Origin: Mycolicibacterium gilvum
GTDB taxonomy: Bacteria > Actinomycetota > Actinomycetes > Mycobacteriales > Mycobacteriaceae
Direction of reading: 5' to 3'
Length of the DNA: 64,000 bases
NCBI RefSeq assembly: GCF_900454025.1
Contig: NZ_UGQM01000001.1
Location: forward strand, 1,612,001-1,676,000
Positions 45,008 through 51,103 of this stretch are shown in pieces. The notes under the pieces are model-generated. The model ran no database searches, had not been told where the DNA came from, and worked only from the letters and a program-made list of their open reading frames with translations. The translations under genes and the position numbers were made by a program. The first letter of the stretch is position 1. Every line of letters begins with the position of its first letter.

Positions 45008-45081
45008 CGCGGGGTGGAGCAGCTCGGTAGCTCGCTGGGCTCATAACCCAGAGGTCGCAGGTTCGAATCCTGTCCCCGCTA
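45008..45081 (+). tRNA. Initiator tRNA-fMet (anticodon CAT)
   Basis: A 74-nt cloverleaf without encoded CCA (the flank reads CTA). The acceptor stem is GCGGGG/CCCCGC with an unpaired first position (C1 opposite U72). The anticodon stem has three consecutive G-C pairs (GGG...CCC) around CTCATAA, with CAT at 45042-45044. The T-arm has GGTTCGAATCC. The 1-72 mismatch and the three G-C pairs define the formyl-methionine initiator rather than the elongator. Confidence 0.97.
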
Positions 45082-45089
45082 CTAAATGG

Positions 45090-45123
45090 AACGGCCCTCG
45101 GAGGAAACTCCGGGGGCCGTTTT
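45090..45123 (+). terminator. Intrinsic terminator of the initiator tRNA gene
   Basis: AACGGCCCTCGGAG pairs with CTCCGGGGGCCGTT around a GAAA tetraloop (14 bp with one G-U pair), followed by TTTT. It begins 8 nt after the tRNA. Confidence 0.85.
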
Positions 45124-45264
45124 CATGGGCGGTGACGGCGTTGATCCCTCTCAGATCCGAGTACGACACGACGCGGCTCAGTGGCCGCGCAGGCGTTCTC
45201 GCCGGCGGTTCCTCACGGGGCCGGATGGTCGTCGACGTGGGACTTTCGCAGACGTACGGATCGT

Positions 45265-46278
45265 TCAGAACTGGTACTGGGAGATGGTGTTGGCGTCGGC
45301 TTCCAGCGCGGCATTTCCGACGAAGACGTTGTCGTAGCCGTCGAGTTTGGTCAGCGAGTCGTAGCCGGGGACATTCAGGTCGGTGCCTGTCTCGATCTTC
45401 TCGCCCTGCACAAGCATCAGCGCGATCTGCAGCTGCGCTTCCGCGGCCATCGCCGGATCCCAGAAGAAGATCTTGTCGATCGAGCCATCGGCGAAGAACG
45501 TCGACGCCACGGAAGGAACCGCCGTGCCCATCACACATGTCCGGTCCTGCAAGCCCGCGTCCCGGACGGCCCGGGCGATTCCCGGCACATCGGTACTGGC
45601 CGCGCCCTGGAAGCCCTTGAGGTTCGGGTACTTCACCAGCAGCTCGGTGGCCCTCGCGTAGGCGGTCGGCTCGTCGTTGGCGGTTTCGACCGGTCCCTCG
45701 ATGCGGGTCATACCGGGGAACTCGGCCAGCTGCATGTCATGTGCGGCGTCCACCCACTGCATGTGTGTCGTCATGGCCACGCTACCGACGAACTGGACGT
45801 ACTCGCCTTGCCCTTCCATGCACTGGGCGAGGCTCTGCATGGTCTGCCTGCCGAAGGCGGCGTTGTCGAAGGCCTCGATGTCGATGTCGGCGTTCCGAAT
45901 TCCGGTGGCCTCGTGCGAGACGACGGTAATGCCTTGGGCGCGAGCCTGGCCGAGAACATCCTCCAGCGCATCTACCGAGTTGGGCACCACGGTGATGGCG
46001 GTGGGGCGGCGAGGGATCAGGTCCGCGATGAGCTGAACCTGCTTCTGCGCGCTGGTGTCGTCTGCGCCCACCTGGCTCGCGTGGACGCCGGTGCGACTCG
46101 CAAAGTTCTCGACGCCCACCGCCATTCGGTTGAACCAGGGGATGCCTTCGACCTTGACGACGTTGACCATCGTCACGTCGCCGGCATCCGGGGAGGCGTT
46201 GGCGGCGCCCGCGGACGCGGCGACCAGCGACATGGTCACGCCCACCGCACCGAGAAGGGCAGTTCGACTGCGGCGCAT
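45265..46278 (-). CDS. Exported sugar/AI-2-type ABC substrate-binding protein (orphan)
   Basis: The 337-residue protein has a Sec signal peptide (1-about 28; hydrophobic LLGAVGVTMSLVAASAGA, then A-N-A). It has the Peripla_BP_4 fold of LsrB/RhaS-type binding proteins: VEGIPWFNRMAVGVENFA, QVQLIADLIPRRPTAI, VVSHEATG, FDNAAFGRQTMQSLA and YPNLKGFQGAASTDVPGIARAV. There is no lipobox Cys, so it would be free or loosely attached outside. GGAGAAG precedes the ATG. No permease or ATPase gene lies beside it. It could serve a transporter elsewhere or act as a sensor. Ligand (AI-2, rhamnose or other) unknown. Confidence 0.83.
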   Translation of the reverse strand: MRRSRTALLGAVGVTMSLVAASAGAANASPDAGDVTMVNVVKVEGIPWFNRMAVGVENFASRTGVHASQVGADDTSAQKQVQLIADLIPRRPTAITVVPNSVDALEDVLGQARAQGITVVSHEATGIRNADIDIEAFDNAAFGRQTMQSLAQCMEGQGEYVQFVGSVAMTTHMQWVDAAHDMQLAEFPGMTRIEGPVETANDEPTAYARATELLVKYPNLKGFQGAASTDVPGIARAVRDAGLQDRTCVMGTAVPSVASTFFADGSIDKIFFWDPAMAAEAQLQIALMLVQGEKIETGTDLNVPGYDSLTKLDGYDNVFVGNAALEADANTISQYQF

Positions 46279-46406: not shown

Positions 46407-47738
46407 CTACGCGGCTGCCCGTTCCGACGCGTCGTCGTCGGAATCCCCGTCGTCGTCGGAGGACTTGGCCGAGCCGTTCGCCGGTGCTGCGTCATCGGCC
46501 TCGGCGTCGGGGTGGTTCCCGACGGCATGGTCGGATGCGCCGGTGTCCTCCTCGACTGTGTCTACGTCGATGGTGTCTACGTCGACGGTGTCCTCGAGGA
46601 CGACGTCGGAGGCCGTCGCCTCGTCGTCGTCAGTACTGCCGGTGACCTCGTCACCCGACGGCGGTGTGGAGCCCGCGGGTGCAACGCCCGAACCGTTGCG
46701 TGTCTCGGCCTCGGCGACCGCCACGGACTGCGGTTCGGCTTCGTCGTCGTCCTGGGGAGCGGCGGTCACGACAGCACGGTGCAGCTCGGTGACGTCCAGA
46801 CTGTCCTCGGTCACGGATGGGCGGAACTCGTCGACGATGTCGCGCACGGTGTCGGGGATGAACCGGACCACCGCCCGGGTCACCTCGATCAGGCCGTCGC
46901 GCACCGCATTCACCAGCGTCTCGAAGTCGCCCGACGAGAACGCCGTGCCGACGTTGTAGAGCGCGGTCTGCGGCGCGACCACCAGGTCCCGGACGTTGAC
47001 GAGCAGCTTGGTGGCCAGCGACGGGTCGGCTGAGACGGCTTGTCCCGCCCAGCTCACCAGTGTCCAGCCCTCCTCGGGGCTGCCTTCCACCACCACCGAC
47101 TCGACGTTGTCCAACTGATGCCTGAGCATCAACAGAAGGTCGGGGTTGTCGACGTTCATCATCACCCAGAACATGATCGTGGCGCCGTGCGCAAAGGCCA
47201 CTGCGTTCTCGTCGCCGTTGTCGGCGATCTCCGCGATCGCACCATCGACTCTGGCGTCGAACGCGTTTCCGTCCTCCCCGCCGGGCACGGGCACGAACCG
47301 GGCGCCCAGCATCCAGGTGACCGGTGCCAGGGCATAGCCCAGCCGGCCCAGGCCCTCGTTCTCGGACGATCCCTCGAAGATGCCCGCCGAGATCTCCCGA
47401 AGGCCGGGCAGGACCTGATAGCTCGACCCGGGCAGCAGATCGAGCATCGGCTGTGCCGTCAGCTGGGTCCGCAGCATCGACGACACATAGATGCCGTCGA
47501 AACCCATGCCGGCGAGCACAGGTGCGATCGCCCGCGCCTGAAGCTCACCTGCCTCACTCAGCCCGGGGCCGGGCACTCGGGTGTCGATGATGCCGGCCTC
47601 GTTGGCCAGAGATTCCGCGTGACGCACGAACGTCAACGTCATCGCCCACGACGGAATCGCCGACACCAGGACGAGGAGCACCGCCGACAGCGCCGCGATC
47701 AGAATTCGTCGAACTCGACACGTCCGTGGATCTGGCAT
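46407..47738 (-). CDS. Exported histidine-phosphatase-like protein with acidic C-terminal tail
   Basis: The 443-residue protein has a signal peptide or anchor (about 9-32, ILIAALSAVLLVLVSAIPSWA) followed directly by the phosphohistidine motif FVRHAESLANEAG (His40). A second histidine is in VAFAHGATI. The phosphatase domain runs to about 225. The rest has helical pieces and then about 100 residues of Asp/Glu/Ser/Val/Thr-rich low complexity (VDVDTIDVDTVEEDT, SSDDDGDSDDD). Mycobacterial exported phosphoglycerate-mutase-like proteins of this type are common and their substrates unknown. ATG 47738 is preceded in frame by two GTG codons, which are also possible starts. Confidence 0.8.
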   Translation of the reverse strand: MPDPRTCRVRRILIAALSAVLLVLVSAIPSWAMTLTFVRHAESLANEAGIIDTRVPGPGLSEAGELQARAIAPVLAGMGFDGIYVSSMLRTQLTAQPMLDLLPGSSYQVLPGLREISAGIFEGSSENEGLGRLGYALAPVTWMLGARFVPVPGGEDGNAFDARVDGAIAEIADNGDENAVAFAHGATIMFWVMMNVDNPDLLLMLRHQLDNVESVVVEGSPEEGWTLVSWAGQAVSADPSLATKLLVNVRDLVVAPQTALYNVGTAFSSGDFETLVNAVRDGLIEVTRAVVRFIPDTVRDIVDEFRPSVTEDSLDVTELHRAVVTAAPQDDDEAEPQSVAVAEAETRNGSGVAPAGSTPPSGDEVTGSTDDDEATASDVVLEDTVDVDTIDVDTVEEDTGASDHAVGNHPDAEADDAAPANGSAKSSDDDGDSDDDASERAAA

Positions 47739-47851: not shown

Positions 47852-48130
47852 TCACAACGCAGCGAAGTAGAAGCCCAGCAGCAACCCGACGACGGCGATC
47901 AGCCACCCGTTGGCCGTCACCTTCAGCCACTGTGGCGCGTGGCGGACCTCCATGAAATGCCAGATCACGAGTTGGGTCTTGACGGCCGCGATCACCAGCA
48001 CGACGACGGTGACCGTCGCGTTGAGGTGGTGCGACGCGCCGCCGTCGCGCGCGGTCAGCCACGACACGATCGTCACCGCGGTGAGCACCGCCCAGACGGC
48101 GGTCAACGGGTGGCGCACATAAGACGTCAC
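47852..48130 (-). CDS. Cytochrome c oxidase subunit IV-like (prokaryotic COX4/CyoD) membrane protein
   Basis: The 92-residue protein has three membrane helices (about 8-25, 36-58 and 70-90). It carries the family pattern TVVVLVIAAVKTQLVIWHFMEVRHAPQWLK (read as VIAAVKTQLVIWHFMEVR), typical of the small subunit IV of heme-copper oxidases. GTG start, 4 nt after the COX3-like stop, so it is the last gene of a four-gene operon. No subunit I or II is in the window. Confidence 0.8.
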   Translation of the reverse strand: MTSYVRHPLTAVWAVLTAVTIVSWLTARDGGASHHLNATVTVVVLVIAAVKTQLVIWHFMEVRHAPQWLKVTANGWLIAVVGLLLGFYFAAL

Positions 48131-48134
48131 GGCG

Positions 48135-48737
48135 TCACCTCATCAGATAGAGCAGGGCGAACAGGATGATCCACAGCAGGTCGACCATGTGCCAGTAGGT
48201 CGCACCCGTCGCCGCCAGCGAGAGTCGCGGCTCGGCGGGACCGCGCAGATCGCGGACGACGAAGTACAGGATCGCCAGCCCGAGAAGGACGTGGCACAGG
48301 TGCATGCCCGTCATCACGTAGTAGAACATGAAGAACAGGTTGGTTCCCGGCGTCAGACCGGAGGCGACCTCCGGGACGTATTCGAAGGCTTTGAGCACCG
48401 GGAAGACGGAGCCGGCGACCAACGCCATGAGGAACAGCCGGTGGGCATCGGCGACCTTGCCGGTGCGCAACGCCGACGTTCCCAGCGCGACGAACAGCGA
48501 ACTGGTCAGCAGCACAACGGTATTGACCGCGCCGATGTCGGTGTTCAATCGCGCCTGGCTCTCCAGGAACAGCTGGTGGTCCTGGCCGCGGTAGTACATG
48601 TACACCACGAAGTACACGCCGAAGATGATGAGGTCGCCGATGACGAAGAACCACATGCTGGGCTCACCCGGAAGGTGGCCGCGGCCCTTGGCTTTTCGGG
48701 GCGTCTCGTGCGTCTCGGCCACCCCGAGCCCCGTCAC
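48135..48737 (-). CDS. Heme-copper oxidase subunit III family protein (NorE/CtaE-like)
   Basis: This 200-residue protein has five predicted transmembrane helices. It has the family features GEPSMWFFVIGDLIIFGVYF, LNTDIGAVNTVVLLTSS, FYYVMTGMHLCHVLLGL and ATYWHMVDLLWIILFALLYL. The tail WHxVDxxWIxLF and the GxHxxHV signature define COX3/NorE proteins. It is shorter than CtaE and closer to NorE. The GTG start overlaps the upstream stop by 4 nt. Located between a COX4-like gene and two tandem 6-TM genes. Confidence 0.82.
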   Translation of the reverse strand: MTGLGVAETHETPRKAKGRGHLPGEPSMWFFVIGDLIIFGVYFVVYMYYRGQDHQLFLESQARLNTDIGAVNTVVLLTSSLFVALGTSALRTGKVADAHRLFLMALVAGSVFPVLKAFEYVPEVASGLTPGTNLFFMFYYVMTGMHLCHVLLGLAILYFVVRDLRGPAEPRLSLAATGATYWHMVDLLWIILFALLYLMR

Positions 48738-49534
48738 GAGTCCGCCCCTGACCTGACCGGCGGTCCGGTCGGTGCGGCGATCAGCGCGGCGTTGTCGAGT
48801 TCGTCGTCCGGTTGGTTCTTGATGGCCCGGAAGATGCACACGTAGACGATCATCTGCCAGGACACGTAGAGCGCCATCGCGAACCAGAATGTCAGCAGGC
48901 CGTTCCAGGCGAACGGCCCCGTCTTCGCGATCCACACCGGCGCGGCCATCAGTTCGGTGACGTACTGCCAAACGGTGTAGTAGCCGAGCCATTTCGGCAG
49001 GATGGTGTTCTTGTCGAGGATGATCGCCAGGCCGAACGCCATCCACATGATGCAGAAGCATCCGAGCGATCCGATGAACGCGAGATAGCCGAAGTCGTAG
49101 AGCATCGCCAGGATGGCCGGGTCGTAGCCGGGCCGGAACGCGCCGAGCCCGAAGCAGAACATCGGGAACAGCATGCCGACGATGGTGCCGGTCGTCGCGC
49201 CTGCCATCAGCGCGTAGCGCAGTGCCGGGCTGACCGACATACGCCTGATCTGGTTGAGGTAGCACGCGTTGGACACAGGGGCCAGCCCGAACGCCAAAAT
49301 CAGGATGACGCAGGCGATCAGGAGGTTGGGCGACTGCATGAACGCGACGATCTCGTCCTTCGGACTGCTCGGTGATCGCGGGGGCATCATCCAACTCAGC
49401 GGGATGAAGACCAATCCGAACAGGCTGAAGAACACCGGGACCGACCAGAACGCGATCCACTGGTCCAGCTTGGCAGGTCGGCGCCGTCGGCGGGCCCGCC
49501 CGCCGGCATGCGCGGGCGCGGTGTCGGTGCTCAT
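48734..49534 (-). CDS. Six-helix membrane protein, paralogue of the next gene
   Basis: The 266-residue protein has about six transmembrane segments (at about 26-48, 72-92, 105-130, 145-172, 180-200 and 210-235). Between TM1 and TM2 is a PPRSPSSPKDEIVAFM segment. It aligns in order and spacing with the adjacent upstream gene (DEIVAFM...LLIACVI against EQVAAFF...GVAILCN; DFGYLAFIGSLG against DMAWFFFIAPVG). No heme-binding pairs or catalytic motif are obvious. ATG start overlaps the previous stop (ATGA) and the COX3-like start overlaps its own stop. I do not recognise a named family. Confidence 0.75.
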   Translation of the reverse strand: MSTDTAPAHAGGRARRRRRPAKLDQWIAFWSVPVFFSLFGLVFIPLSWMMPPRSPSSPKDEIVAFMQSPNLLIACVILILAFGLAPVSNACYLNQIRRMSVSPALRYALMAGATTGTIVGMLFPMFCFGLGAFRPGYDPAILAMLYDFGYLAFIGSLGCFCIMWMAFGLAIILDKNTILPKWLGYYTVWQYVTELMAAPVWIAKTGPFAWNGLLTFWFAMALYVSWQMIVYVCIFRAIKNQPDDELDNAALIAAPTGPPVRSGADS

Positions 49535-50268
49535 ACCGTCTCGTCCGGCTCCGCGCCCTGACGGTTGACCACCCCGACCAGGACGACGAACATGACCGCG
49601 ACATAGACCGCCAGAACGATCATGCGCAGATCGAAGGACACCGCACCGTCCCAGGCCAGCGGTCCGGACTTGTACAGCAGGGAGAACGCGCTCGGAACCA
49701 GAAGGACCGCGGTGGCGACGTTGAAATGCGCCACCCAGCGCGCGAAGACCGGTTCGGGGCGAGCGTCGAGGTAGATGCTGACTGCCAGGCACAGGTTGGC
49801 CACGACGATCGTGCCCACCGGCGCGATGAAGAAGAACCACGCCATGTCGTTGAGCAGGCTGATCAACTGAGGGTCTCTGTCGGTACGGAACGCCGCCATT
49901 GCCCAGCAGTAGTCGGCGAGGATGAACGCGGTCAGTCCGACACCGACGCACAGCATGTACGCGTAGGTGAAGACGTTGCTCGACGTGCCGATCCGCGAGA
50001 TCTGGACAGCGGTCACCGCGAACAGCGGCACCAGCGAGCATGCGATCAGGTTGCACAGGATTGCGACGCCGAGGATGCCGGTGACGTTGTCGGCGAAGAA
50101 CGCCGCCACCTGCTCGGGCGTCATCGTGGGTGACAGCGGCGCGGAGAAGACCGGAAACAGGAAATAGGCGAGGACGAACAGGGCAGCCGCCGGCGGCACG
50201 GTCCACAGCAGAATGCGCTGACCCCTGGTGTTCATCGCTGCTGACGGCGCGGCGGTGGTCGTCGTCAT
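49531..50268 (-). CDS. Six-helix membrane protein, first gene of the COX3/COX4-like operon
   Basis: The 245-residue protein has about six membrane segments, starting with ILLWTVPPAAALFVLAYFLF (about 18-38). The extracytoplasmic loop SPTMTPEQVAAFFADN follows TM1. Related to its downstream neighbour, so the pair probably arose by tandem duplication and may form a heterodimer. A TetR gene is divergent, with a 226-bp gap that should hold both promoters. Start ATG 50268 is chosen (AGTGAG upstream), and a later Met (position 12) is possible. Function not recognised. Confidence 0.72.
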   Translation of the reverse strand: MTTTTAAPSAAMNTRGQRILLWTVPPAAALFVLAYFLFPVFSAPLSPTMTPEQVAAFFADNVTGILGVAILCNLIACSLVPLFAVTAVQISRIGTSSNVFTYAYMLCVGVGLTAFILADYCWAMAAFRTDRDPQLISLLNDMAWFFFIAPVGTIVVANLCLAVSIYLDARPEPVFARWVAHFNVATAVLLVPSAFSLLYKSGPLAWDGAVSFDLRMIVLAVYVAVMFVVLVGVVNRQGAEPDETV

Positions 50269-50494
50269 CTCACTGTTCCTGCCTGTCTGCGTCCGTTCGG
50301 TGTCCATCCGGCGTGCGTGCCGTGCCGGCGCCGTCTCAGGTCTAGCATGTTCGCTGACAGATGACAACGAGTTCGGTAGCACGTTGATACGTCGATCGGC
50401 TCGAACCTCCTGCATAAGGCTCGCTAGAGGTCCAGATCCCGATGATTAGGCCGACAAGCGTCAGTCAGACGCCACGATGCGGCAGAATGGGCGA

Positions 50495-51103
50495 GTGCCG
50501 AACAGTGCCACGCAGCGGGAAGTGCAGCGTCAGAACACCCGCGCCCGCCTGCTGGACGCCGCCATCGTCGAGTTCCAGCGCTCCGGCACCGGCGGCGCCG
50601 ACATCAACGCCATCGTCAAGGCGGCCGGGGTGGCGCGCAGCACCTTCTACTTCCACTTCCCGACCAAAGAACATGTGCTGCTCGAGCTGATCCGCCGTGA
50701 CGAGCGGCACCTCGCCGAAGAGCTCGACCGGTTCCTGGAAACCCGGCACGACCTGCCGACGGTGCTGACGACCATCGTCGAGTTGGTCTTGGACCTCGAA
50801 AGCCGTTGGGGCGGAGCACTGTTCCATGACGTGATCCGCCTGTACTTCTCGCCTGCCCGTCCCGAGCGTGAGCAGTGGATCAACCATCCGATCTTCGTAC
50901 TGCTGGCCGCCGAGATCGAACGCTCCCGCATTCGCGGCGAACTCTACGATGACGTCGACGCCTACCACAGCGCGGCCTTCTTCCTGCTCGGCCTCTACGC
51001 GTTGCTCACCACCGTCGGAGAGTCCAGGTCCGAGCGTGACCTCGCGCTGACCAAGTTCGTCACCAGTACGCTGCGCAGCCTTCGGCCGGCATCACCGCGC
51101 TGA
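50495..51103 (+). CDS. TetR family regulator, divergent from the COX3/COX4-like operon
   Basis: The 202-residue protein has an N-terminal helix-turn-helix (RARLLDAAIVEFQRSG...INAIVKAAGVARSTFYFHFPTKEHVL, about 14-60) and a helical ligand domain. CAGAAT ends 6 nt before the GTG start, so the transcript may be leaderless. Its position back to back with the membrane operon makes that operon and itself the likely targets. Confidence 0.85.
   Translation: MPNSATQREVQRQNTRARLLDAAIVEFQRSGTGGADINAIVKAAGVARSTFYFHFPTKEHVLLELIRRDERHLAEELDRFLETRHDLPTVLTTIVELVLDLESRWGGALFHDVIRLYFSPARPEREQWINHPIFVLLAAEIERSRIRGELYDDVDAYHSAAFFLLGLYALLTTVGESRSERDLALTKFVTSTLRSLRPASPR

Follow-up and report, generated by a model that had tools for sequence, protein, structure and literature searches.

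The 64,000-nucleotide stretch of the Mycolicibacterium gilvum genome analyzed here (assembly GCF_900454025.1, contig NZ_UGQM01000001.1, forward-strand positions 1,612,001 to 1,676,000; hereafter the window) carries on its minus strand a compact operon of four membrane-protein genes, with a gene for a TetR-family regulator diverging from it. The first gene, 6TM-A (49531–50268, minus strand), encodes a 245-residue member of an unnamed family with six transmembrane segments (6-TM) that appears distantly akin to DUF4386, and is followed by its tandem paralogue 6TM-B (48734–49534, minus strand, 266 residues). The third gene (48135–48737, minus strand, GTG start, 200 residues) encodes a COX3-like protein of the type seen at the NorE position of nitric oxide reductase (NOR) clusters and scored 39 bits against PF00510 (cut-off 23.8). 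Immediately behind it, at the NorF position, a COX4-like gene (47852–48130, minus strand, GTG start, 92 residues) scored 50.5 bits against PF03626 (COX4_pro, cut-off 28.9). Successive genes are coupled by an ATGA overlap, a GTGA overlap and a 4-nucleotide gap between the COX3-like and COX4-like genes. The regulator gene (50477–51103, plus strand, 208 residues) matched PF00440 (TetR_N) with 46.5 bits for a cut-off of 24. The original prediction, made from the sequence alone, had described four overlapping or nearly overlapping genes with a divergent TetR gene and without oxidase subunit I or II, and had proposed structure prediction and a gene-neighborhood survey as checks. Its coordinates and gene junctions were all recovered, and the list of open reading frames (ORFs) together with a Pfam scan revealed no COX1, COX2 or other oxidase-core gene in the operon.

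The gene set proved to be strongly conserved. A scan of species genomes with 6TM-B, which reaches close relatives only, returned 33 loci in Mycobacterium, Mycolicibacterium and Mycolicibacter. The presence of 6TM-B in these loci is by construction, since they were found through it; 6TM-A and the COX3-like gene were present in 33/33 and the COX4-like gene in 32/33, the exception (L040) stopping at a contig edge. Hence, the co-occurrence of the four genes extends far beyond M. gilvum (32 of the 33 loci). A divergent TetR gene was found in 27 loci, while no strong TetR match was obtained in the other six (L030, L032, L033, L038, L039 and L043). As L038 starts too near the operon for a TetR call, five TetR-less loci are informative.

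When the 28 regions between the TetR gene and 6TM-A were aligned (the window and its 27 orthologues), a 20-bp imperfect palindrome, TCGCTGACAGATGACAACGA, came to light; it occupies 50351–50370 in the window (no strand assigned), with 9-bp arms of which 7/9 positions are complementary and a 2-bp spacer. It is the likely TetR operator. The palindrome was present with at most two mismatches in 28/28 TetR-bearing loci of the window-type operon, and was also found in L164, which carries an operon of this type. In the five informative TetR-less loci, no palindrome was detected near the operon at up to four mismatches; one of them, L039, has a single match at position 14.9 kb of the locus, distant from the operon. 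Because the pattern was derived from the same sequences, the informative part is its loss along with TetR. The site at 50351–50370 is the sole exact match in the host genome. In the window, the search returned two rows that correspond to one palindrome read on either strand, for a chance expectation of 0.28 matches at up to three mismatches per 64 kb; two or more matches arose in 3/100 shuffled sequences. A second, inverted operator-like box position before tetR (50448–50467, no strand assigned) is recognizable in many orthologues, the window copy being degenerate and weak with more than four mismatches. A TetR_N domain combined with a palindromic predicted operator in the divergent promoter region corresponds to the layout of a TetR-family repressor. 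Both the putative regulatory site and the predicted module are well supported, and the regulator would bind the palindrome and repress the operon.

The original prediction had also regarded the two 6-TM proteins as related, which alignment bore out (25% identity over 230 columns, E-value (E) 3e-18). Hydropathy analysis gave six transmembrane segments for 6TM-A and five for 6TM-B, some of them merged, and the AlphaFold2 model of 6TM-B was confidently helical, with six helices, or kinked pairs of helices, of membrane length (mean predicted local distance difference test score 90.6, predicted template modeling score 0.84). Neither protein matched any NCBIfam model, and the sole Pfam row was a chance-level one for 6TM-B (E 0.99). 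DUF4386 (PF14329) matched weakly 2/20 aligned members of the 6-TM family (best E 3e-4), and a precomputed DUF4386 domain was found on 4 of the 120 listed matches to the 6-TM profile, whereas neither window protein matched the model at E 1 or better or reached its gathering score. The 6-TM family may therefore be called distant kin of DUF4386 only, a term used by no paper within the literature searched. Near-invariant positions of the family include P51, P52, R134, D147, D174, P180, W182, W189, G206, P207 and G212, and no conserved histidine was found in the family alignment.

The A and B proteins (15 of each) formed sister clades in a tree built from 95 6-TM proteins (supports 100/99 and 100/100, joint 100/97), so that the A/B tandem arose once and stayed paired; it goes back to one old duplication, still paired in 15 cassettes. 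The COX3 proteins of the same 15 double-6TM cassettes formed one group in the COX3 tree (91/97), and the genes of the cassette thus seem to have evolved as a unit. Another 6-TM tandem with a COX3-COX4 pair (L128, genome G305, 2.73 Mb) is independent of this duplication. A local expansion of the family was seen on contig 15 of G327 (L144), where about 13 kb hold six 6-TM genes, including one that belongs to a COX3-COX4 cassette.

Nine 6-TM, six COX3 and five COX4_pro genes were counted in the M. gilvum genome. They make up five 6TM-COX3-COX4 cassettes, with two of the 6-TM genes standing alone. Besides the window cassette, a second one with two 6-TM genes (L049, at 5.56 Mb) has a divergent TetR gene whose product is 48% identical to the window TetR, and three cassettes hold a single 6-TM gene. 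The lone genes (L053 and L054, at 0.37 and 3.55 Mb) stand in similar blocks with a flavin-oxidoreductase-like gene, a likeness read from the sequence start, and YrbE genes, also near aldehyde dehydrogenase gene(s).

More broadly, 20/296 genomes of an Actinomycetota sample matched the 6-TM family, ten strongly (best E at or below 1e-62) and ten weakly (1e-21 to 2e-4), and 48/393 genomes of a class-level sample matched at E up to 1e-25. Matches were also found in 13 plasmid records from Rhodococcus, Pseudonocardia, Streptomyces, Novosphingobium, Sphingobium, Diaphorobacter and Mycobacterium branderi, so that the 6-TM family extends to other Actinomycetota as well as to Alpha- and Betaproteobacteria. 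The COX3 gene was contiguous with the 6-TM gene in 10 of the 12 plasmid loci read (two being near-duplicates of one strain); in L056 the COX3/COX4 pair lies about 2.6 kb away on the opposite strand, and L062 has no pair. All COX4_pro genes of the ten strongly 6TM-positive genomes (21/21) lie within 6TM cassettes. Over the whole phylum sample, COX4_pro exceeded its cut-off in 96/296 genomes (the ten included), mostly as a single copy, and is common without a 6-TM gene.

The origin of the COX3/COX4 pair was addressed through its relatives. A search with the window COX3 protein matched 242 plasmid records (60 of them listed), and ten further neighborhoods, picked by choice, were read. Four of them (L112, L113, L114 and the Azoarcus locus L120, with the order COX3-COX4-6TM) are 6TM cassettes, their 6-TM proteins scoring 115 to 185 bits against the family profile. 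In the other six, the pair is placed among NOR-type genes: five loci combine it with cytochrome c, "cbb3-type subunit I", NorQ-type and VWA genes (norC, norB, norQ and norD types), and the sixth, from Thiothrix, with NorQ-type and VWA genes (norQ/norD types). In the plasmid records, the COX3-like member of the pair is labeled "cytochrome c oxidase subunit 3" and its companion mostly "subunit IV family protein", so the names NorE, NorF, NorB, NorC and NorD reflect our reading of the gene layout, based on the nor gene set given in PMC13036017, and not the record annotation. A 2026 paper gives the function of NorE and NorF as not known.

The kinship extends to the residues. K116, E119, H146, H149, W182, H183, D186 and W189 (window numbering) were invariant in 50/50 6TM-linked and 6/6 NOR-linked COX3 proteins. 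The window module also has in common with NOR clusters that a COX4_pro-type gene comes directly after the COX3-like one. Unlike them, it has no NorC, NorB, NorQ or NorD and holds 6-TM proteins in their place. In a tree of 57 COX3 proteins, rooted on one long-branched canonical-type sequence, 49/50 6TM-linked rows formed a group of their own on a moderately supported, not strong, branch (84/92); the NOR-linked rows fell outside it, and the Azoarcus row among them. The canonical-type COX3 of the host genome, 31% identical to the window protein, has all eight residues but K116, which is Q. Although the window pair exceeds the PF00510 and PF03626 cut-offs, as subunits III and IV of caa3-type oxidases (CtaE/CtaF) do, the two proteins do not reach the curated thresholds that NCBIfam sets for actinobacterial CtaE and for caa3 subunit IV, and the operon has no subunit I or II. 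The original prediction had seen here COX3 and COX4 deprived of their oxidase partners. The lack of an oxidase core held, while the pair is not simply of the oxidase type, given the six relatives with NOR-type genes. These six pairs at the NorE/NorF position suggest that a two-gene accessory unit has been re-used, a NorE/NorF-type pair apparently being joined to the 6-TM family where NorCB would be, and the "cytochrome c oxidase subunit" labels on the pair genes of the cassettes would seem questionable.

An oxidase or NOR core was then sought around the 6-TM genes with one query each, COX1 from the host and NorB from Azospirillum, at E up to 1e-3. No relative of COX1 or of NorB was found in 111 stretches holding a 6-TM gene, the window included, and norC/norB beside the pair, the mark of cNOR, was thus not seen. 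As a control, the NorB query retrieved 5/6 NOR plasmid loci, and the COX1 query missed those NorB genes, so that each query sees its own kind. The absence of a conserved histidine in the 6-TM family and of COX1 and NorB nearby argues that the 6-TM protein is not an oxidase core. The module as a haem-copper oxidase was rejected: no subunit I/II gene lies in the operon, the COX1 query retrieved nothing from the 64-kb window, and histidine is missing from the conserved 6-TM positions. As read from these sequences, the combination of 6-TM and COX3/COX4 genes recurs in many bacteria, usually with no oxidase or NOR enzyme gene nearby. The same NorB result (0/111) bears on another explanation, that the module handles nitric oxide or other reactive nitrogen species and has kept the original business of NorE/NorF. 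The six NOR-associated pairs would fit this idea, but the annotation around those plasmid cassettes that were read lists no gene for denitrification (two records being unannotated), and we consider it very unlikely.

According to another explanation, the cassette would supply alternative subunits III and IV to an aa3-type oxidase encoded elsewhere, around an extra COX1 copy, and the 6-TM proteins would act in assembly or anchoring. The retention by the COX3-like protein of E119, H146, H149, W182, H183, D186 and W189 of the host canonical-type COX3 would fit such a role, as would the three COX1 genes of the host, compared with one COX3 outside the cassettes. Within the host genus (n 28), the number of 6-TM genes shows a weak correlation with that of COX1 genes (rho 0.38, p 0.04), 6-TM count and genome size giving rho 0.35 (p 0.06), whereas 21 genomes outside the family, 13 of which have one COX1 gene, showed a negative correlation (rho −0.53, p 0.01). 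These correlations leave out G049, from another genus of the family, and the per-genome counts reach at most 7 (6-TM) and 4 (COX1), values that mean "at least" there. On contigs shared in the ten strongly 6TM-positive genomes, the nearest COX1 gene lies 56 kb from a cassette, in the host genome; two cassette contigs of G053 are about 7 kb long, so less of the surroundings is visible there. Among the places listed, one G642 cassette is about 15.5 kb from a COX1 gene, which pulls in the opposite direction to the negative result of the 111 stretches. The aa3 explanation is further opposed by G305, with three cassettes and one COX1 gene, by G320, with two cassettes, a COX3-COX4 pair one gene from a 6-TM gene and again one COX1, and by the NOR-type company of the non-6TM pairs. 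We therefore hold it to be rather unlikely. The original prediction had offered an accessory module for an oxidase encoded elsewhere as one option; G305 weakens it, and the genus-level correlation and the G642 cassette still speak for it.

The gene neighborhoods show a modest excess of P450 and other oxygenase genes. After removal of near-copies, 452 of 520 genes within five genes of the 6TM regions were compared with 269 of 271 control genes taken from seven genomes (20 regions, arbitrarily chosen). Gene calling relied on a simple script based on codon positions, which overlooks some genes; the genome matching is partial, and the p-values are uncorrected. With plasmid-derived seeds, oxygenase-type genes made up 23/452 neighbors and 4/269 controls (p 0.014), cytochrome P450 genes 11/452 and 1/269 (p 0.04), and genes for beta-oxidation, short-chain dehydrogenases/reductases or aldehyde dehydrogenases 53/452 and 18/269 (p 0.03). 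Rieske, P450 or mce genes lie beside several plasmid 6-TM copies. In the Streptomyces sp. CA-256286 plasmid (L112), the cassette is directly downstream of a P450 gene and near an FAD-dependent monooxygenase gene, within what may be a biosynthetic cluster.

These surroundings also bear on a transport role, in which the 6-TM proteins would be the permease-like part of an uptake or efflux system for lipophilic compounds, working with Mce or in TetR-controlled efflux or tolerance, and the NorE/NorF-type pair would only stabilize it. The two lone host copies beside YrbE genes, followed in L053 by Mce genes, are in line with it, as are the cassettes adjoining mce operons in two Rhodococcus plasmids and the TetR_N domains detected by Pfam scan in 14/144 neighbors and 4/148 controls (p 0.015; subsets of the 452 and 269 genes). 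However, with single-protein seeds TetR was not enriched (6/452 vs 2/269, p 0.72), Mce (4/452) and YrbE (2/452) were not significant among the neighbors, and 6TM-A and 6TM-B matched no transporter family in the Pfam and NCBIfam scans. A permease of this kind seems quite unlikely to us.

A tie to mycofactocin, with electron transfer from mycofactocinol, was weighed in the same way. On the plasmid of Streptomyces sp. NBC_00080 (L062), the lone 6-TM gene stands behind a mycofactocin cluster (mftA-G), a hydroxylase gene and a flavin reductase gene, and a cassette lies near mftR in Novosphingobium. In contrast, mftC exceeded its cut-off in 46/296 genomes, 38 of them without a strong 6-TM match, and did not do so in 2/10 strongly 6TM-positive genomes, G053 (nine 6-TM genes) and G117 (two). 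The latter two genomes contradict a strict dependence, and a tie of any kind appears extremely improbable.

The reading that we favor, to which we would give about an even chance, is that of a cofactor-free membrane accessory complex for the catabolism of hydrophobic compounds under TetR control. The four genes would encode one membrane module that combines a NorE/NorF-type pair with two DUF4386-like 6-TM proteins. The divergent TetR would repress it through the palindrome before 6TM-A until released by a ligand, probably a hydrophobic one. The four proteins may then assemble in the cytoplasmic membrane as a heteromeric accessory complex, for the uptake, holding or hand-over of apolar substrates (or O2), which would be passed to the oxygenase-driven catabolism of steroids, terpenoids or aromatics. 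To the 6-TM proteins, the NorE/NorF-type pair would be what pairs of this kind are to NorCB in NOR clusters. The module bears no sign of a redox center and is consequently not an oxidase; an accessory role for oxygenases is judged the most likely because P450, Rieske, flavin monooxygenase and Mce genes are repeatedly found next to the genes of the module, with modest evidence for this step. A bolder version would give subunit-III-type proteins an activity of their own, based on the invariant E/H/H/H/D and independent of haem-copper subunit I. Together with the DUF4386-like proteins, they would form a widespread inducible machine for oxygenase-based hydrophobic catabolism, and NorE/NorF would do the same job for NorCB. 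We find this version rather doubtful.

Several observations weigh against the accessory complex, beyond the genus-level correlation and the G642 cassette mentioned above. The enrichment is modest: among 15 single families, only P450 (0.04) and aldehyde dehydrogenase (0.09) fell below an uncorrected p of 0.1, and the seeds were picked after the plasmid contexts were known. Rieske or Mce genes are near four of ten annotated plasmid loci, and others, L065 and L066 for example, have none nearby. In the neighbor test, the genes around the window operon (histidine phosphatase, periplasmic-binding protein, GAF-EAL) showed no catabolic link, and a PDB fold comparison gave no match explaining the 6-TM protein. 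Among 81 6-TM genes in 58 regions, 51 are placed in cassettes (as A, as B or as the single 6-TM gene) and 30 were scored as lone, without a COX3 gene after them, so that the 6-TM protein is not always tied to the pair; the regions were picked for holding a 6-TM gene, and some "lone" genes lie at contig ends or behind COX4. Finally, at up to two mismatches the palindrome is lacking in the paralogous TetR-bearing L049 and in L147, L149, L161 and L165, which makes it special to the window lineage.

Two other ORFs of the window may be mentioned. The one at 46407–47738, downstream of the operon, encodes a histidine phosphatase domain whose C-terminus is drawn out into a long acidic tail. The other, at 45041–45538, ends in TGFEPATSGL, presumably a typical ending of tRNA-derived false ORFs, and lies close to a tRNA-Met gene (45008–45082); it is likely spurious.

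The suggestion of an undescribed membrane complex in the original prediction has found partial support, in that the module was found to be undescribed, to have no oxidase core and to co-occur far beyond the species. Here, a NorE/NorF-type pair appears to live without an adjacent nitric oxide reductase and with a different, consistent partner, which would make the role of the pair directly testable. Besides, a broadly distributed 6-TM family that is annotated as hypothetical gains a likely partner and a regulatory site.

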